Source of the DNA: Megamonas hypermegale
GTDB lineage: Bacteria > Bacillota > Negativicutes > Selenomonadales > Selenomonadaceae
Direction: 5' to 3'
Length of the DNA stretch: 64,000 bases
Assembly: GCF_900187035.1 (NCBI RefSeq)
Contig: NZ_LT906446.1
Span: forward strand, 2,046,001 to 2,110,000
Every line of letters begins with the position of its first letter. The first letter of the stretch is position 1. The position numbers were made by a program, and so were the translations under genes. The notes under the pieces are model-generated. The model made no database searches. It saw nothing but the letters and a program-made list of their open reading frames with translations, and was not told where the DNA came from. Shown in pieces: positions 31,209-40,607 of this stretch.

Positions 31209-32048
31209 ATGGAAAGTTTAGTAAAAATTTTGCAAGAGCAAAAAGGGTTTTCTGAATCAGAGTCAATGATTGCAACGTATTTATTAGCTAATTTTCGTAA
31301 ATTGGCTGGAATGTCTACACGAGAATTAGCAAAAAATGCATATACAAATTCAGCAGCTATTGTGCGTTTTAGTCAAAAACTTGGATTTACTGGTTATACA
31401 GAATTTAAAGTTAAGTTTTTAGCAGAAATGATGCAACATATAAATCGACCATCAAATAATGAACTTTTAGTTTCAACGCATGACAGTATTCATTCTTTAA
31501 TTGAAAAAGTGACAGCAATAGAAATTGACACGCTCAAACATACAAGAGCACTGTTAGACCCAGAAGCATTTTTGAGAGCGTTACCTCTTTTTTCTAAATC
31601 GGAGCATATTGATTTTTATGCAATGGATAATAATTTGGATATAGCTAGGATAGCAGCATCTGGTTTTATCATGGCAAATAAATGTTCAAGTGTACATTCA
31701 TCTATGACTATGCAGTATTTACAAGCAACAGGTGGCAAAAAGCATTTAGGTTTTTTTATAAGTAGAACAGGTAATAATAGAATGCTTGTAGATATTGCGC
31801 GTTTATTAAAAATGAAAAAGAGTCCAATCATATTAATTACAGCTAATAAGAATTCTGAATTAGCAGCAATGGCCGATGTGACTTTTACAGTTGCCAGTGT
31901 AGAAAATATGGAAGAATTAGGGCCACGTGTATTTTTATTAGGTGTCAAATATGTTACAGATATTCTTTTTGCGATGCTTATGACAAGACTTGACTATAAT
32001 GAAACTCGCCAAAAAGAACAATGGTTAAGTAAAAATTTTCGTTATTGA
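31209..32048 (+). CDS. RpiR/MurR-type regulator of the beta-glucan locus
   Basis: 279-residue regulator. The N-terminal HTH_6 domain includes LAKNAYTNSAAIVRFSQKLGFTGYTEFKVKFLAEM. The C-terminal SIS domain is more divergent, with HLGFFISRTGNNRMLVDIARLLKMKKSPIILITANKNSELA. AGAGGTG precedes the ATG. It directly precedes the PTS and glycosidase genes on the same strand, so regulation of that locus by a phosphorylated disaccharide or sugar phosphate is likely (inference). Confidence 0.85.
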   Translation: MESLVKILQEQKGFSESESMIATYLLANFRKLAGMSTRELAKNAYTNSAAIVRFSQKLGFTGYTEFKVKFLAEMMQHINRPSNNELLVSTHDSIHSLIEKVTAIEIDTLKHTRALLDPEAFLRALPLFSKSEHIDFYAMDNNLDIARIAASGFIMANKCSSVHSSMTMQYLQATGGKKHLGFFISRTGNNRMLVDIARLLKMKKSPIILITANKNSELAAMADVTFTVASVENMEELGPRVFLLGVKYVTDILFAMLMTRLDYNETRQKEQWLSKNFRY

Positions 32049-32261
32049 TAAATGTAAGACTATATACATTTATATTTTATAAGTTAGATTGTGTTTATTT
32101 AAATTTTAATTTAAATGATATTATTTTCAGATTATTTGTAGCATTGATACAAAACAGAACTTTTTGTGAACCGGTTGATGTAGCAATGTTTCATAATCCC
32201 TTTTATCTATTGAAACGGTATTATGTAGGTGCTATATTAAAAATGACCTTAAGGAAAGCTC

Positions 32262-32285
32262 CTTGAAAGCGTGCACAATTTCAAG
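32262..32285 (+). promoter_or_regulatory. Inverted repeat with cre-like sequence before the PTS genes
   Basis: CTTGAAA (32262-32268) and TTTCAAG (32279-32285) form an inverted repeat around TGAAAGCGTGCACA (32264-32277), which resembles a catabolite-responsive element (TGNAANCGNNNNCA). It lies 29 bases before the EIIC start. It could be a CcpA site or the RpiR operator. The 265-base gap from 32049 to here holds no convincing gene. Confidence 0.4.
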
Positions 32286-32313
32286 AAAAATAAATAAAAA
32301 AGGAGAATTCCAA

Positions 32314-33648
32314 ATGAATAAGCAAAAACTTTTTGACCGTTTCATTGAGATTATGGGCAACTTTGCTCAGATACGTGCTGTAGCGGCTTTGCGTGATGGC
32401 TTTATCATGACTACGCCGTTTACGATATGCGGTTCAATTTTCTTGTTGATTGCCAATCTGCCGATACCGGGCTACGGTGATTTTATGGCTTCTATATTTG
32501 GCAGTGATTGGACAGCAGCTTTAAATGCTGTTGCCGGAGGAACTTTTAACGTACTGGCATTGATTGTCGTGCTTGCCATCACATACAAATTTGTAGCTAA
32601 TGAAGGCTGCGATGCTATTATGGCTGCCATTTTAGCATTATCCACGTTTTTAATTTTAATGCCACCGACATTGACGACTGCAAATGGAGAAATTGTCGGA
32701 GATATTATTCCGAAAACATGGGCAGGAGCAAACGGAGTTATTACTGCAATTATCGTAGCATTTTTCGTATCGCATGTTTTTTGTTATTGTGAAAAAAATC
32801 ATATCGGCATAAAAATGCCAGGAGCAGTGCCTCAAGGCGTAGCAAGAGCTTTTACCGCACTTGTACCGGGTATGATTTTCTTCACTGCGGCTGCTGTTTG
32901 TTACGGCATCTGCTATTATGTCGGAGCAACTACAGTTCCAGAACTCATCTTTAAAGTTATCCAGACTCCGCTTCAGGGTCTTTCAGATACACTTGCCGGC
33001 GGCAGTATTATTGTCGGATTGCAGGGAATTCTGTTCTGGGCCGGTATTCACGGACCGAATGTTGTCGGTGGTGTAGTAGGACCGCTTTTGATTGCCAACT
33101 CACTTGATAATCAGCATCTTATTGATATGGGCATGAGCCTTATAAACAATCCTCAGGCTAAGATTATCACCTGCCAAATCAACGATGTATTCGTAAAAAG
33201 CGGCGGTTGCGGTTTAACATTAGGACTTTTATTGGCAGGTATCTTTACGGTAAAATCGCAGCAGTTGAAATCCTTATTGCGAATGGCTTTTGTACCAGGT
33301 CTTTTTAATATAAATGAACCACTTATTTTTGGTTTACCAATTGTATTTAATCCATATTTATTAGTACCATTTGTATTAGTACCGTTGATTGCAATGTTTG
33401 TTACGTATTTTTCGATTGTTTTAGGTTTTATGGCGCCGTTCAGCGCGGTACAGGTACCGTGGACGACACCGCCTATTATTGCCGGTTTTCTGCTTAACGG
33501 CTGGCAGGGAGCTGTAGTTCAAATCATAAATCTTGCAATAGCGACAGTAATATATTTTCCGTTCCTCAGAGCACAGGACAAAGCGTTCTTAAAAGAAGAA
33601 CAGGAACAGATGGAAATGGAAAATGAAGGCAATGATGAGAAAAAATAA
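32314..33648 (+). CDS. celB: PTS cellobiose/beta-glucoside transporter subunit EIIC
   Basis: 444-residue inner-membrane sugar channel of the lactose/cellobiose PTS family. It begins MNKQKLFDRFIEIMGNFAQIRAVAALRDGFIMTTPF and has FWAGIHGPNVVGGVVGPLL and the conserved FVPGLFNINEPLIFGLPIVFNP. AGGAG precedes the ATG at 32314; an upstream in-frame start is not needed. Short AT-rich and GC-richer patches alternate in the gene. EIIB and EIIA follow after the porin gene rather than directly. Confidence 0.93.
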   Translation: MNKQKLFDRFIEIMGNFAQIRAVAALRDGFIMTTPFTICGSIFLLIANLPIPGYGDFMASIFGSDWTAALNAVAGGTFNVLALIVVLAITYKFVANEGCDAIMAAILALSTFLILMPPTLTTANGEIVGDIIPKTWAGANGVITAIIVAFFVSHVFCYCEKNHIGIKMPGAVPQGVARAFTALVPGMIFFTAAAVCYGICYYVGATTVPELIFKVIQTPLQGLSDTLAGGSIIVGLQGILFWAGIHGPNVVGGVVGPLLIANSLDNQHLIDMGMSLINNPQAKIITCQINDVFVKSGGCGLTLGLLLAGIFTVKSQQLKSLLRMAFVPGLFNINEPLIFGLPIVFNPYLLVPFVLVPLIAMFVTYFSIVLGFMAPFSAVQVPWTTPPIIAGFLLNGWQGAVVQIINLAIATVIYFPFLRAQDKAFLKEEQEQMEMENEGNDEKK

Positions 33649-33725
33649 AAAAACTTCAGCTTGAAGCAATTAACTATCGGATAAATGCCAATAAAAATAG
33701 TTTATCTATAGATAAAGGAGAAATT

Positions 33726-35234
33726 ATGCTGAACTTATTAAACAAGAAAAAAACAATGGCGCTCCTAATGGGGCTTGCCGTCGGCATGACGAGTACGGCT
33801 TTTGCGGCAGAAAATCAGACAGTACAGGCAAATGAACAGGTGAAAGAAGTTTCTGATACAGCTGCTTCTGATGGAAATGAAAAAACAAAAGATACAGCAG
33901 ACGATAAAAAAGATACTTCCGCAGTGGACAGTTTCAGTGATGTGCCGCAAGGTCATTGGGCTTATGAAGCACTTGATTATTTAGCTCAACATGGTGTTAT
34001 TGAAGGTTATAATGATGGAACTTTTCAGGGCAACCGTACTATGACACGCTATGAAATGGCAAGTATTGTAGCAAATGCTATGAAATCAGATAAAGGCGAT
34101 ATTGGTGATAAAGCTGTACTGAAACAGTTAGAAGCCGAATTTCATGCAGACATTCAGAATATGCAGAAACAGATTGACGCTAATAAAGCAGATATTGAAA
34201 AATTAAAAGAAGATGCTGAACGGGTAAAAATATATGGTTTCGGCCGAGTTAGCTGGGATAATGATAATATAAAAGGATATGCGGATCAAAATGATAATAA
34301 TCGTTTCTATCTTGATTTAAAAGGTTCATTTAAGGTTAATGATAATTGGAATTTTAATTTTGAAAGTGAAACTAATCAACGTTATGCTAGATATGTTACC
34401 TCTAATGGTGATGTAAAGTATCATGAAGGTCATGATGATTCTGACGGTGTAATTCAGCGTGTTTGGGCAGAAGGAAATATTGATAAATTACATGTTGATG
34501 TAGGTCGTAGATGGCGTGGATTAGGTTTTCAAAATGTTTTATTAGGAAATGAAACAGATGGTATAGTTTTGGATTATCCATTAGATAATAATGGTTTGAA
34601 AGCATTAGCTTTTTACCAAAAACCAACAGATGCAGGATATGATTTTGCTATGTATGGATTAGGTATTCAAGGACCAGTTTCTAAAAATCTTCAAATTAAT
34701 TTAGCTTACGCTATGCTTGATATAGATAAAAATGAATCTCCAGGTTATGACCCATATAATGGAAATGCACCACTTGTAAATACATTTGGTTCACATGGTT
34801 TAGTTTTAAGTGCGATGTGGAATCCTTTAAGAAATATCACACTTATTGGAGATTATGTACGCACTAATGCGGAAACGCAGCATGTAACTGAATATGTCGG
34901 CGACCGCGTAAACAATTTTGATATTGACGAAAATACAAGTAAATCAATCCGTTTGAATTACCGTTGGACAAATCTCAACGACCCAGGTTCTTTCCAGCTT
35001 TATACGCGCTGGTTTGATTATGGTCGTCATGGAAATATCATGGGCGATGAAGAATGGGGCTTATTAAAACCAGGTTCTAACGGTTGGGTATTTGGTTTTA
35101 AATATGTTCCAGCTAAAAATATAGAATGGGAAACAATGTATGAAATTGCCGATATGTATGACGGTACTTACGGAAAACAGAATGAACAGTATAAACGTCA
35201 TTTACTTCGTACCCAAGTGGATTTCCACTTCTAA
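33726..35234 (+). CDS. SLH-domain outer-membrane porin (OmpM-like)
   Basis: 502-residue exported protein. A Sec signal peptide (about residues 1-28, ending FAAEN) is followed by an acidic linker. One SLH domain (FSDVPQGHWAYEALDYLAQHGVIEGYNDGTF with TMTRYEMASI, about 65-120) tethers the protein to peptidoglycan. A coiled coil (130-175) follows, then a beta-barrel region with alternating aromatic strands ending in ...TQVDFHF; a terminal Phe is the outer-membrane insertion signal. Such porins are hallmarks of Negativicutes. Its place between EIIC and EIIB suggests passage of gluco-oligosaccharides. Confidence 0.88.
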   Translation: MLNLLNKKKTMALLMGLAVGMTSTAFAAENQTVQANEQVKEVSDTAASDGNEKTKDTADDKKDTSAVDSFSDVPQGHWAYEALDYLAQHGVIEGYNDGTFQGNRTMTRYEMASIVANAMKSDKGDIGDKAVLKQLEAEFHADIQNMQKQIDANKADIEKLKEDAERVKIYGFGRVSWDNDNIKGYADQNDNNRFYLDLKGSFKVNDNWNFNFESETNQRYARYVTSNGDVKYHEGHDDSDGVIQRVWAEGNIDKLHVDVGRRWRGLGFQNVLLGNETDGIVLDYPLDNNGLKALAFYQKPTDAGYDFAMYGLGIQGPVSKNLQINLAYAMLDIDKNESPGYDPYNGNAPLVNTFGSHGLVLSAMWNPLRNITLIGDYVRTNAETQHVTEYVGDRVNNFDIDENTSKSIRLNYRWTNLNDPGSFQLYTRWFDYGRHGNIMGDEEWGLLKPGSNGWVFGFKYVPAKNIEWETMYEIADMYDGTYGKQNEQYKRHLLRTQVDFHF

Positions 35235-35268
35235 AAATAAATAACAAAATTAAAGGAGTTAATTTATC

Positions 35269-35571
35269 ATGAAAAAAATTGTTTTATTATGTGCATCCGG
35301 TATGTCTACAAGTATGTTAGTAAAAAAAATGCAGGAAGCAGCAAAAGCTGAAAATTATGATTGTGAAATAGCTGCCTATTCAGCAGCAGAAGCAGTGGAA
35401 AAAGCTTCAGATGCTGATGTAGTATTACTTGGTCCACAAATTCGTTTTTCTAAAGGTAAAATTGCTTCTGAATTACCAGGTGTTCCAGTAGATGCTATTG
35501 ATATGCGTATGTATGGCCGCATGGATGGTAAAGGCGCATTGGCTTTTGCAAAAAAATTGATGAAGGACTGA
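35269..35571 (+). CDS. celA: PTS lactose/cellobiose subunit EIIB
   Basis: 100-residue cytosolic phosphocarrier. The phosphorylated cysteine is Cys8 in IVLLCASGMSTSMLVKKM, and LLGPQIRF near residue 62 is typical of the EIIB-cel fold. It passes phosphate from EIIA to the incoming sugar. AGGAG precedes the ATG. It ends 7 bases before the EIIA gene. Confidence 0.95.
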   Translation: MKKIVLLCASGMSTSMLVKKMQEAAKAENYDCEIAAYSAAEAVEKASDADVVLLGPQIRFSKGKIASELPGVPVDAIDMRMYGRMDGKGALAFAKKLMKD

Positions 35572-35578
35572 GATTGAT

Positions 35579-37325
<1,747 letters not shown>

Positions 37326-37346
37326 AAAAAGAAAGGAGAAAATATT

Positions 37347-38132
37347 ATGAATTTAAAGAAAAAAGCTCTTGCAACAGCAATATTTATGGCTTTAAGTGCC
37401 ACACCAGTTGTATTACCTGTAAATTATATGACTTCTTCTGTTGTTTGTGCTGCACCAGCAAGTGAAATAAAAGCAGAAGATGCATTTCAGGTAGATTTTA
37501 AAAATGGTATGCCGAAAGGTTTTGAAGCTTCCGACGGCTGGACGAACGGCAATATGTTTAATGTAAATTGGCATAAAGAAAATGTTACTTTTAATAATGG
37601 TAATTTACAATTAGTTATTGACCATGAAAAAAATTCAGGTAAAATCCCTTATTCTGGTGGTGAATTCCGCAGTCAGGGCTTTTACGGATACGGACGCTAT
37701 GAAGTCAGCATGAAACCGATTAAAAACGACGGTGTAGTATCTTCGTTCTTTACGTATACCGGTCCGTCCGACAATAATCCGTGGGATGAAATCGATATAG
37801 AATTTTTGGGCAAAGATACGACAAAAGTACAGTTTAATTATTTTCGTGACGGAAAAGGCGGCCATGAATATTTATATGATTTAGGCTATGATGCTTCACA
37901 GAGCTTCCATACGTACGGTTTTGAATGGCATAAAGATAAAATCATCTGGTTCGTCGATGGTAAAGAAGTATACCGCTTAGAAGGAACGACAATTCCTGTA
38001 ACGAAAGCCAAACTCATGATGAACGCATGGTGCGGTACAGGTGTTGATGAATGGCTTAACGCATTTGATGACAAAAATTTACCTGTACAGGCTGAATATC
38101 AATGGATAAAATACACACCATTTACTGAATAA
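37347..38132 (+). CDS. Exported GH16 beta-glucanase (lichenase type)
   Basis: 261-residue endo-beta-1,3-1,4- or 1,3-glucanase. Residues 1-36 form a Sec signal peptide. The catalytic motif DEIDIEFLG gives nucleophile Glu148 and acid/base Glu152. GEFRSQGFYGYGRYEVSMKP and the aromatic YHTYGFEW-like segment FHTYGFEWHKDKIIWFVDG match Bacillus lichenases. There is no anchoring domain, so it acts in the periplasm or outside. GAAAGGAG precedes the ATG. Confidence 0.93.
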   Translation: MNLKKKALATAIFMALSATPVVLPVNYMTSSVVCAAPASEIKAEDAFQVDFKNGMPKGFEASDGWTNGNMFNVNWHKENVTFNNGNLQLVIDHEKNSGKIPYSGGEFRSQGFYGYGRYEVSMKPIKNDGVVSSFFTYTGPSDNNPWDEIDIEFLGKDTTKVQFNYFRDGKGGHEYLYDLGYDASQSFHTYGFEWHKDKIIWFVDGKEVYRLEGTTIPVTKAKLMMNAWCGTGVDEWLNAFDDKNLPVQAEYQWIKYTPFTE

Positions 38133-38146
38133 GGGGTGCATGGATA

Positions 38147-39946
38147 TTGTTTAGTAAAAAAAAACTACTCCAATTTGCTTTAGCAGGTATAGTTTTAGTA
38201 AATACTAATATGCTGTTTTCCGTATCGGAGGCGGCCGATGATGGTATTCATGTGGACCAGGTCGGATATCTTACAAATCACGATAAAGTAGCTATGGTAG
38301 CGGATGCAAAAGACAAGACTTTTGAAATTATTGATACCAAGACAAATAAAGTGGTATTTACAGGAAAATTATCCGCACCAAAATATGATGCTATGTCGGA
38401 AGAAACTTTAAGCAAAGCGGATTTTACAAATTTAAAAACACCGGGAACATATATATTAAAAGTGGGTAATCGTGAATCGTATGATTTTGAAATAGGTGAT
38501 AATGTATATGCCGTTCCTACTGTACAAAGCTGGCGTTCATACACTTTATCGCGCAGCAATACACCGATTGATGATACAAATGTCTCCGGCTTAAAATTAA
38601 ACGGCGGTCATCCGCAGGATAAGGAAGCGCAAGTTTATTTTACGGATAAATTAAATAAAAAAGGCGATGTGGTGGATGTCAGCGGTGGCTGGTATGATGC
38701 TGGCGATTACGGCAAATACATTACAACAGCCGGTTTGAGCAGTGCTGAGCTTATGCTGGCATATGAAGCAAATCCAGACCATTTTACCAAAGGACAGCTT
38801 GTATTCCCGAAGGGAGTAAACAGTGAAGCCAATCTGCCGGATGTATTATCCGAGGTAAAATTTGAAATTGACTGGATGCGTAAAATGCAGCGACAAGATG
38901 GCAGTACTTTTCATAAAGTAGCAGGATTAACTTGGCCTAGTTTTGAAATTTCACCAGATACTGATACACAACAACGCTATATTTTTAGTACTGCAACATA
39001 CAGTTCTGCTATATATGGTGCAAGTTTAGCTATAGGTGCGCGTGTTTATGAACCATTTGATAAAACGTATGCACAAGATTTGAAAAAAGATGCTGAACGT
39101 GTATGGGAATATTTACAGAAAAATCCTAACCCTATTTATCGTGTTGATGAAGGACAGGAAAATGGTTCTGGTCCATATAATAAAAATACGGATATTGAAG
39201 AACGTCTTTGGTTATCTGCAGAAATGTTTTTGACAACAGGTGACAAAAAATATGAAAATTATTTACAACAAGAAAAAGAACGTTTAACAGATAAACCTAG
39301 TTTCTTTACATGGGATAATACTTTAGCTCTAGCTCAATTTGCGTATGCTAAAGCTCCAAATGCTGATAAGAAATTACAAACAGAAGTTAGCAATGCTTTT
39401 ATCAGTTATGCAGAAGATATTTTAAAGAAAATTAATTCTGATGGATTTGAATGTGCTTTAGCAGAAAATGAGTATACATGGGCATCAACAAAAAATGCTT
39501 TGACTCAGGCAGATATATTATTAATGGCTTATCAACTCCAACCTAAACAAGAATATCTCGATGGAGCTTTATCACAAATTCATTATTTATTCGGTCGTAA
39601 TTCATTAAATAAAAGTTTTATGACTGGTGTAGGTGATAATCCACCAGAACATCCACATAATCGTATACATGAAAGTACAGGAGCATATGTTTCAGGATTA
39701 GTTGTAGGCGGACCAAATCATGTTATTGGTGGAGACCCAGACCAAACAAAATATTTGGAAAGCGGACATATTCCAGTAGCTAAATCTTATATCGATGTAT
39801 TGACTTCATGGTCTACAAATGAATATGCTATCGATTATACTGCTGCAGCAGTATATGCTTTATCTTGGTTTACAGAACCAGAAATAATAGATAAAGCTCA
39901 ATTAAAATTAAATAGAGATTTCCCCTCAATAACTCTGAAAAAATGA
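38147..39946 (+). CDS. Exported GH9 glycoside hydrolase (endoglucanase/cellobiosidase type)
   Basis: 599-residue enzyme. After a signal peptide (residues 1-29), an N-terminal Ig-like CelD_N domain (IHVDQVGYLTNHDKVAMV, about 32-115) precedes the (alpha/alpha)6 GH9 domain. GGWYDAGDYGKYITTAG holds the catalytic-base aspartates. GDNPPEHPHNRIHES and a late YTSWSTNEYAIDYTAA-like segment (LTSWSTNEYAIDYTA) hold the general acid Glu. The start is TTG at 38147, 8 bases after AAGGGGTG. The first 700 bases are GC-richer than the rest. Substrate is cello- or mixed-linkage oligosaccharide by context. Confidence 0.9.
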   Translation: MFSKKKLLQFALAGIVLVNTNMLFSVSEAADDGIHVDQVGYLTNHDKVAMVADAKDKTFEIIDTKTNKVVFTGKLSAPKYDAMSEETLSKADFTNLKTPGTYILKVGNRESYDFEIGDNVYAVPTVQSWRSYTLSRSNTPIDDTNVSGLKLNGGHPQDKEAQVYFTDKLNKKGDVVDVSGGWYDAGDYGKYITTAGLSSAELMLAYEANPDHFTKGQLVFPKGVNSEANLPDVLSEVKFEIDWMRKMQRQDGSTFHKVAGLTWPSFEISPDTDTQQRYIFSTATYSSAIYGASLAIGARVYEPFDKTYAQDLKKDAERVWEYLQKNPNPIYRVDEGQENGSGPYNKNTDIEERLWLSAEMFLTTGDKKYENYLQQEKERLTDKPSFFTWDNTLALAQFAYAKAPNADKKLQTEVSNAFISYAEDILKKINSDGFECALAENEYTWASTKNALTQADILLMAYQLQPKQEYLDGALSQIHYLFGRNSLNKSFMTGVGDNPPEHPHNRIHESTGAYVSGLVVGGPNHVIGGDPDQTKYLESGHIPVAKSYIDVLTSWSTNEYAIDYTAAAVYALSWFTEPEIIDKAQLKLNRDFPSITLKK

Positions 39947-39992
39947 CAATCCCTTACCTAAATAATAAGAGAGTGAAATGAGAGAAATAAAT

Positions 39993-40024
39993 AAAGGTTG
40001 TGGCTAAAAAACCACAACCTTTAT
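39993..40024. terminator. Bidirectional terminator ending the glucan operon
   Basis: AAAGGTTGTGG (39993-40003) pairs with CCACAACCTTT (40012-40022) between converging genes. Confidence 0.88.
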
Positions 40025-40025
40025 T

Positions 40026-40607
40026 TTATAATTTTGCATATAAAGCAATAGCTTTTCCGAGAATACGAATATTATTACAGTTATCTATAGTGAAATTTAA
40101 TGGTGCATATTTAGGATTTTCAGCACGTAATTGAAGTGTGTTTTCAAATTTATACACGCGTTTTAATGTAGCACTATCATCTATTAATACAGCAGCGATT
40201 TCACCATTTTCAACTACTGGCTGTTTTTTTATATAAACAATATCTCCGTCATAAATGCGAGCACCAATCATACTATCACCACTTATGCGCAAACAAAAAT
40301 CAGCATTAGTATAATCATCGCAAGGCATATATCCTTCAATATTTTCTTTAGCTAAAATTGGAATACCTGCGGCAATTTTTCCAAGTAGTGGAATGTGTTT
40401 TAATGTACGATTTTTTTCTAAAAAAGTATCCGGTGATATATGCAATGCTTGTGCAATTTTTAAGATATTTTTATATTTAGGTTGATAATTACCAGATAAA
40501 TATTCGCTAATAGAAGATTTATTAATACCTGTTAGTTTAGCTAAATCATTTTGTTTTAAATTTTGTTCTTTTAAAATATATCTAAGTGTAGTAGCAAAAG
40601 AAGACAT
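40026..40607 (-). CDS. XRE-type repressor with S24 (LexA-like) autocleavage domain
   Basis: 193-residue protein. Residues 1-60 form an XRE HTH (LKQNDLAKLTGINKSSISEYLSG), and residues 75-193 a S24 peptidase fold. A cleavage bond Ala-Gly is present in GKIAAGIPILA, the catalytic Ser in RISGDSMIGARI, and the catalytic Lys in ATLKRVYK. It resembles phage CI-type or HdiR-type SOS-responsive repressors rather than classical winged-helix LexA. No prophage genes surround it; gpsA lies 21 bases upstream on the same strand. Targets are unknown. Confidence 0.85.
   Translation of the reverse strand: MSSFATTLRYILKEQNLKQNDLAKLTGINKSSISEYLSGNYQPKYKNILKIAQALHISPDTFLEKNRTLKHIPLLGKIAAGIPILAKENIEGYMPCDDYTNADFCLRISGDSMIGARIYDGDIVYIKKQPVVENGEIAAVLIDDSATLKRVYKFENTLQLRAENPKYAPLNFTIDNCNNIRILGKAIALYAKL

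Follow-up and report, generated by a model that had tools for sequence, protein, structure and literature searches.

The window examined here is a stretch of 64,000 nucleotides from Megamonas hypermegale (positions 2046001-2110000 of a genome that consists of one contig of 2.23 Mb), and it carries a run of genes in which an outer membrane porin lies within a phosphotransferase system (PTS) locus. The best explanation, and one that we consider likely, is that these genes form a single short-beta-glucan uptake unit, controlled by an RpiR-family regulator and equipped with a dedicated, exchangeable outer membrane gate, in a diderm Firmicute. The porin of the operon would let cello- or mixed-linkage oligosaccharides pass the outer membrane, two exported glycoside hydrolases (GH) of families GH16 and GH9 would trim them, probably in the periplasm, a PTS with the enzyme II (EII) components EIIA, EIIB, and EIIC would import and phosphorylate the cellobiose-size products, and a GH1 enzyme would split the phospho-disaccharide inside the cell, with the whole unit under RpiR control. 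As placed by its sequence, the porin is a member of a class-wide, mostly PTS-associated clade of OmpM-fold proteins distinct from the general OmpM, and, judging from the alignments, recombination has exchanged its barrel in several relatives and left the other genes of the locus in place.

The open reading frame listing and the Pfam and NCBIfam matches bear out the gene order given in an earlier note on this DNA, namely, EIIC, an SLH porin, EIIB, EIIA, GH1, GH16, and GH9 behind an RpiR regulator (Table 1). All eight genes point in one direction with one terminator at the end; the gaps from EIIC to GH9 measure 77, 34, 7, 1, 21, and 14 bp, and 265 bp lie between RpiR and EIIC. At the subfamily level, EIIC scores 354 bits against a cut-off of 236 for lacE (TIGR00410), GH1 scores 784 against 624 bits for 6-phospho-beta-glucosidase (PRK09589), and GH16 scores 325 against 300 bits for the BglS beta-glucanase equivalog (NF047856), while EIIB and EIIA lie above the Pfam gathering score (PF02302 and PF02255) but below their NCBIfam cut-offs. 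GH16 also contains the string DEIDIEF, which we take to be the lichenase-type motif. GH9 starts with TTG, the EIIC protein used as query started one codon earlier than the gene in Table 1, at 32311, and the PTS Enzyme I is encoded elsewhere in the same genome. The order is not due to chance, because it recurs in many relatives, in many of which an RpiR gene also precedes EIIC in the BLAST-labelled neighbourhoods.

Comparing the locus across related genomes, as the earlier note had suggested, shows this recurrence and also that the sugar-porin clade accompanies PTS genes throughout the class Negativicutes. Within the family, the porin has matches in 51 of 189 genomes (E <= 1e-40) and EIIC in 67 (E <= 1e-120), the latter also in 71 of the 380 class genomes; neighbourhoods were retrieved around the matches and their genes labelled by BLAST. 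A close porin on the same strand is found at 28 of the 32 EIIC loci with a nearby GH16, versus 9 of the 52 without GH16 (Fisher p 1.5e-10, a value that is overstated, since the rows share ancestry and short contigs tilt the count towards positives). This count takes in 84 of the 95 EIIC frames of the family's retrieved loci, rather than every EIIC match; 11 frames on short contigs were left out, and short-contig rows with GH16 or a porin in sight were counted, which favours positives. Four of the nine rows with a porin and no GH16 are beta loci, that is, loci of the window's beta-glucan type, cut by contig ends (L038, L062, L068, and L085), and the rows with GH16 and no porin are L120, L135, and the second EIIC of both L056 and L081. 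No porin occurs in the retrieved stretch of 22 plain EIIC-EIIB-EIIA-GH1 loci without GH16 (L096-L098, L101, L104, L109, L112, L113, L115, L116, L121, L123, L124, and L126-L134); at L093, such a run is followed by a porin.

Starting from the porin, 49 of 56 loci have an EII gene in the retrieved flanks, and 54 have an EII gene or a secreted GH, where EII was recognised by likeness to the lactose/cellobiose and glucose types, so that other PTS types are missed. Around the four OmpM-like paralogues of this genome, no EII of these types lies within about 7 to 8 kb. PTS linkage is not exclusive to the sugar-porin clade, because 6 of 20 loci of other SLH porins have EII hits (L188, L189, L190, L193, L194, and L195); at L188, L190, and L195, in genomes G047 and G280, SLH porins labelled outside the sugar-PTS group adjoin PTS genes. 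The relatives with an EIIC 62-86% identical to that of the window include Selenomonas ruminantium strains, S. ruminis, S. montiformis, Mitsuokella jalaludinii, M. multacida, Propionispira species, and metagenome-assembled genomes. Some loci deviate: L055, L068, L073, and L089 are beta loci without EIIB between porin and EIIA, L055 and L089 having an EIIB upstream of the operon instead, and L086, also a beta locus, lacks EIIB between porin and GH1. L146 (G162:C17) is a second PTS locus with a porin broken by a stop (identities to the window of 60% for EIIC and 75-85% for EIIB, EIIA, and GH1). A search for related loci with the porin gave 21 pattern matches, none of which was confirmed.

The AlphaFold model of the window porin (from 36 sequences; mean predicted local distance difference test score, 82.8) shows 16 barrel strands in a manual count, which leaves out strands 340-342, 385-391, and 394-400 among the 19 listed strands of at least three residues. 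Among PDB entries, VpOmpM1 matches it best (8bys; Z 26.6, root mean square deviation 3.0 over 305 residues), with the next entry at 19.7, and the structural alignment has 14% identity. The Pfam scan of the porin matched SLH alone, and no LamB-type entry is among the 50 best Foldseek entries, a list of best entries that is not evidence of absence. VpOmpM1 is composed of an SLH domain, a coiled coil, and a barrel; a construct lacking the stalk transports similarly save for arginine and alanine, and VpOmpM1 lets monosaccharides through and not disaccharides (PMC10628300); therefore, a disaccharide PTS plausibly needs another porin, and one for cellobiose-size sugars would plausibly gain from a porin of its own.

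In a 145-row tree of the barrel columns only, a quick tree with long branches and no bootstrap, separating the sugar-PTS porins from the rest, including the general OmpM, takes three changes, and the window porin does not group with the housekeeping OmpM paralogues. Among the beta-locus porins, 33 of 36 fall into one starred set that includes the window porin (SH-aLRT 97; Shimodaira-Hasegawa-like approximate likelihood ratio test). The exceptions in the first tree (L085, L056, and one of the two L058 porins) were placed with other PTS porins, and the alpha porins, those from alpha-glucan loci, surround the beta clade as successive branches and do not make up a single clade. The first tree was built without porins of 380 amino acids or less and OmpM relatives of 620 or more; for the second, added rows outside 370-620 amino acids and L223-L225 were dropped. 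The labels beta, alpha, ptsX, and hk were assigned by hand from neighbour genes, and the hk rows, which came from an OmpM query, are a biased sample, which 22 rows of other SLH porins in the second tree were meant to offset. Residues such as W263, G267, G274, R428, D441, R495, and D499 hardly vary among 65 sugar-PTS porins, and few or none of 43 OmpM rows have them.

The porin could nevertheless be co-regulated without being specific, as a wide, general OmpM-type channel that raises permeability whenever the operon is on. In fold it comes closest to the general porin VpOmpM1, the Mep45 porin of Selenomonas ruminantium has an estimated pore larger than that of VpOmpM1 (PMC10628300), and beta and alpha porins are separated by three positions alone, with the alpha porins not forming one clade. 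Yet the PTS-linked porins are separated from the general OmpM in the tree and by many distinguishing residues, and nearly all beta-locus porins make one clade, so we regard a non-specific channel as unlikely and a porin specific to the operon's sugars as the better reading. Separate alpha and beta specificity residues were dropped as a candidate on account of the three positions, and a short loop L3 as the cause of a wide pore was rejected (median L3 length of 18 in OmpM and 19 in the sugar porins). We make no claim of a sugar slide, because several strands gave weak parity.

Outside the family, a porin query taken from another family matches 51 of the 380 class genomes (E <= 1e-45), and 13 of the 15 porins found there at E <= 1e-100 lie in a co-directional run with EII genes (L153-L155, L208-L211, L213, L214, and L216-L219). 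At L207, an EIIC lies about 5 kb from the porin on the opposite strand, and the stretch of L212 ends just past the porin. L218 and L219 have the order EIIC, porin, EIIB, EIIA, and GH1 of the window, although the adjacent EIIC is 33% identical to the window's.

The earlier note overlooked that the SLH start is missing in most relatives' porins at this locus, in 26 of the 36 beta-locus porins (by regular expression, and by Pfam for the window); the first part of these looks like coiled coil by eye, without a program, whereas the window porin, its genus mate, and eight other beta rows keep SLH. The window porin carries the TRYE string, which the work on OmpM ties to peptidoglycan binding (PMC10628300), and for this protein taken singly one might think of a tethering OmpM paralogue that landed in the operon by accident. 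We rate this as highly improbable, because different genera and families retain the porin in this slot, even beside distant EIIC types (L218 and L219), and the absence of SLH from most beta-locus porins speaks against it as well.

Many of the closest porins outside the beta loci sit, by predicted gene content, in alpha-glucan PTS loci of parallel design. Their order is a glucose-type EII, a TreC-like GH13, HAD, the porin, and an exported GH13 (L042, L044, L047, L060, L061, L063, L064, L072, L094, and L095), headed by RpiR wherever the stretch reaches far enough, and the same order is found in L215 and L220, from two other families. In a second order (L053 and L082, and partly L080 and L091), a PTS EII is followed by an endonuclease/phosphatase-like gene, a MalQ-like gene, the porin, and GH13. 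GH13 is present at L045, L046, L074, and L088 with no EII seen. TreC, HAD, and MalQ are names read off translations rather than from family scans.

The porin is the variable part of the locus. Over 18 relatives' loci and the window, its median pairwise identity is 53%, versus 69-86% for the other seven proteins, and in 8 of the 15 locus pairs with a mean identity of at least 95% for the other proteins, the porins are less than 63% identical; the 15 pairs share loci and are not independent. Examples are G143/G148 (97.5% for the others versus 48.6% for the porin), G149/G160 (98.4% versus 62.6%), and, over four genes, G170/G172 (96.5% versus 34.9%) and G170/G175 (95.2% versus 33.9%). DNA alignments have sharp breakpoints around the barrel in three of six pairs. 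For G143/G148, EIIC is 82-98% identical, roughly the initial 300 bases of the porin gene 77-86%, the barrel 42-56%, and the sequence from the porin end on 97%; the profile of G147/G148 is similar, and G149/G160 drops from 90-94% to 51-71% and returns to 98%. At the protein level, the G143/G148 porins are 90% identical at the N-termini, 40% in the barrel strands, and 21% in the extracellular loops, and, as a control, the best-matching OmpM of the two genomes (one OmpM, compared in this set only) is 81% identical. For G170/G172, the whole porin gene seems to have been exchanged, because DNA similarity stops at the EIIC end and resumes at the EIIB start. The simplest reading of these profiles is recombination between conserved flanks. 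The alpha loci are milder, with others at 94-99% and the porin at 69-72% (L064 versus L060, L061, and L063); the porins of L044/L047 and L060/L061 are 98-100% identical, and that of L215/L220, at 88%, is above its neighbours at 74-85%.

A broader proposal, for which we see about equal grounds for belief and doubt, is that polysaccharide loci of Negativicutes combine a PTS with a gate drawn from one OmpM-derived sugar-porin clade, be it for beta-glucan, alpha-glucan, or other substrates. The gate would be hypervariable: recombination between flanks that are conserved (the coiled-coil 5' end of the gene and EIIB) would swap its barrel, driven by strong selection such as that from porin-using phages, with the metabolic genes fixed. 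Patches of high G+C content at third codon positions in EIIC, GH1, and GH16 (0.30-0.36 over 32314-38132; the genus mate G038 has 0.13-0.15, and six window genes that are not part of the operon have 0.17-0.25) point to a possible recent recombination with a GC-richer relative.

The earlier note read the locus as a full glucan route. The lactose/cellobiose PTS, the phospho-beta-glucosidase, and the lichenase-type GH16 agree with this, but the trimming of oligosaccharides in the periplasm is at least as good a fit. If GH16 and GH9 degraded polymeric lichenan or barley glucan outside the cell, the porin would import their products; GH16 is of the endo-acting lichenase type, both enzymes look exported, and most alpha loci also have an apparently exported GH13 beside the porin. 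Both enzymes have plain signal peptides by eye, however, no SLH motif was found in the 60 copies read from relatives (31 GH16 and 29 GH9), the lipobox-like strings in 8 of these 60 look by eye like part of the hydrophobic core, and the eight operon proteins include no SusD-like or other glycan-binding family in Pfam. We therefore hold a route starting from the polymer to be rather doubtful and take as the default that GH16 and GH9 are probably periplasmic.

The claim of one unit under RpiR is backed by the co-directional genes and by an operator-like site upstream of EIIC alone; co-transcription and regulator binding are what we infer from them. The palindrome TGTAnCAnTGnTACA with at most one mismatch occurs at 12 places in the genome, compared with 3 for a reversed control pattern, and its perfect copy, the only one genome-wide, lies upstream of EIIC. 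The exact motif is found in the upstream stretches of 12 of 27 relatives, the second-site form TG[TA]AnCAnTGTTTC in 16, and both candidate operators in 10, with starts 42-43 bp apart and the same spacing in the window; these counts are lower bounds, as some stretches rest on a mis-set EIIC start or are shortened. A scan of the window operon gave no operator-like site in the EIIC-porin interval, a placement that fits one regulated unit without proving one. That interval (33649-33725) contains a perfect palindrome, TTTATCTATAGATAAA. In the alpha-glucan loci, a different palindrome, like TGTACCAAAGTAC, is seen in four of seven leaders (L042, L047, L072, and L095), as would be expected if every locus has an RpiR of its own. 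Downstream of the presumed -10, the palindrome GTCTTAAGnCA appears in five of seven leaders shown for sister PTS operons (L096, L101, L113, and L115) and AAGATATCTTA in five of seven alpha leaders shown (L042, L047, L060, L061, and L072), both at the position that CCTTAAGG occupies in beta loci.

The leader between the CTTAAGG box and EIIC may form a hairpin of 7 bp with a loop near CGCGCA in the window and 13 relatives. All seven pairs change on both sides, and covariation is 0.531, versus 0.264 in shuffles, none of 500 being as high; the 14 leaders were picked for a visible hairpin (13 of 27 relatives plus the window), which biases the paired fraction upward. The window's own fold is not clear-cut, and its sequence is among those of RNA model R1, which matches it. 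The model gives a single match in each of seven of nine genomes, always upstream of this operon's EIIC, with several of the nine having supplied the model and 150 candidates scored per genome. An Rfam scan of the window returned one tRNA and no match at the operon or leader. The hairpin after GH9 is the longest terminator-like one in a scan that found 8 sites versus 5.9 expected from shuffles.

Table 1. Predicted genes and candidate regulatory elements of the porin-PTS locus (window coordinates)
Feature	Position	Strand	Evidence
RpiR-family regulator (HTH_6 and SIS)	31209-32048	+	PF01418 (4e-17), PF01380 (8.5e-11)
Candidate RpiR operator 1, TGTAGCATTGATACA (palindrome TGTAnCAnTGnTACA)	32137-32151	none	sole perfect copy in genome
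Candidate RpiR operator 2, TGTAGCAATGTTTCA	32179-32193	none	1 mismatch
Candidate promoter, TTGAAA-17-TATATT	32210-32238	+	10/12 matches; similar -10 by eye in relatives
Putative 5'-leader element, CTTAAGG and hairpin, degenerate in window	32248-32305	+	RNA model R1, E 4.5e-6
PTS EIIC, lactose/cellobiose family	32314-33648	+	PF02378 (7e-49); TIGR00410 above cut-off
SLH porin, OmpM-type fold	33726-35234	+	PF00395 (9.7e-13); AlphaFold; VpOmpM1 8bys match; clade placement
PTS EIIB (lactose/cellobiose)	35269-35571	+	PF02302 (5.8e-21)
PTS EIIA (lactose/cellobiose)	35579-35902	+	PF02255 (5.2e-31)
GH1 6-phospho-beta-glucosidase	35904-37325	+	PF00232; PRK09589
GH16 beta-1,3-1,4-glucanase (lichenase type), signal peptide by eye	37347-38132	+	PF00722; NF047856
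GH9 with N-terminal CelD_N Ig-like domain, signal peptide by eye	38147-39946	+	PF00759 (2e-79), PF02927 (2.7e-22)
Bidirectional intrinsic terminator after GH9	39989-40026	both	hairpin of 15 (+) / 17 (-) counted pairs, T-rich flanks

Several observations weigh against a single unit with a dedicated, exchangeable gate. L120 and L135 have GH16 and PTS genes and no porin was found there, both lying near contig ends, and 7 of the 56 porin loci have no EII seen, L050 and L051 also being without a secreted GH. The exact operator motif is missing from 15 of the 27 relatives, and the promoter scan stands at background (40 hits versus 41.2 in shuffles), promoter hits being relied on solely where relatives agree. 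The region 33630-33740, which includes the 77-bp EIIC-porin gap, folds better than shuffles (z -2.48), and expression could be uncoupled there. By strand parity, a test that uses no coordinates and is weak in several strands, the 32 diagnostic residues divide into 16 inward, 10 outward, and 6 in loops, against a background over all strand positions of 98 inward and 99 outward. With regard to exchange, 7 of the 15 near-identical pairs keep the porin at 72-99% (G142/G157, for example, with 98.2% for the others and 99.0% for the porin), and porin divergence is graded in three of the six DNA pairs (G163/G160, G143/G147, and G142/G150). We nevertheless prefer the short-beta-glucan uptake unit with its own gate, at the strength given at the outset.

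Little is known about how diderm Firmicutes move sugars above monosaccharide size across the outer membrane, and a class-wide, PTS-linked porin clade offers concrete proteins to study in rumen and gut bacteria such as Selenomonas and Mitsuokella. The exchange of the barrel and the absence of SLH amount to a natural experiment on the selection of outer membrane gates under a constant metabolic task. Polysaccharide loci of the SusCD type in Bacteroidetes likewise join outer membrane entry, an exported glycosidase, inner membrane import, and a regulator. The window has a porin and a PTS instead of SusC and SusD, as the earlier note had put it, and neither protein was found by Pfam among the eight operon proteins.

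Like OmpM of Veillonella parvula and Mep45 of Selenomonas ruminantium, the window porin combines SLH, a helical linker, and an OmpM-like barrel; unlike OmpM, a general diffusion channel and tether (PMC10628300), it belongs to another clade. The earlier note held porins dedicated to PTS substrates to be little described in Negativicutes, and in the open-licence literature we found no paper on PTS-linked porins of this class, but the enterobacterial precedents had been overlooked. The Escherichia coli bgl operon consists of bglGFB and the porin BglH, together with a gene homologous to an endoxylanase, and the Erwinia arbGFB cluster includes a porin and a putative exoenzyme (PMC2646131). With both, the window shares a regulator, a PTS EII, a phospho-beta-glucosidase, and an outer membrane porin in one locus, and its gene order, operator-like site, and terminator fit a possible co-regulation of the porin with the EII and phospho-glycosidase genes; it differs in having RpiR rather than an antiterminator, another EII arrangement and lineage, and a porin of the OmpM type. 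The scr locus for sucrose (scrK and scrYABR, with the porin ScrY and operators at the promoter) also pairs a porin with a PTS, the porin being co-regulated by a repressor with promoter operators, whereas its substrate, LacI-family repressor, and porin are different and no polymer-degrading enzymes are named for it (PMC11251922). The principle of a porin in a PTS locus is thus already known from bgl, arb, and scr, and the window points to convergence on this enterobacterial design; new are the lineage, the type of porin, the exported glucanases, the class-wide extent, and the exchange of the porin.

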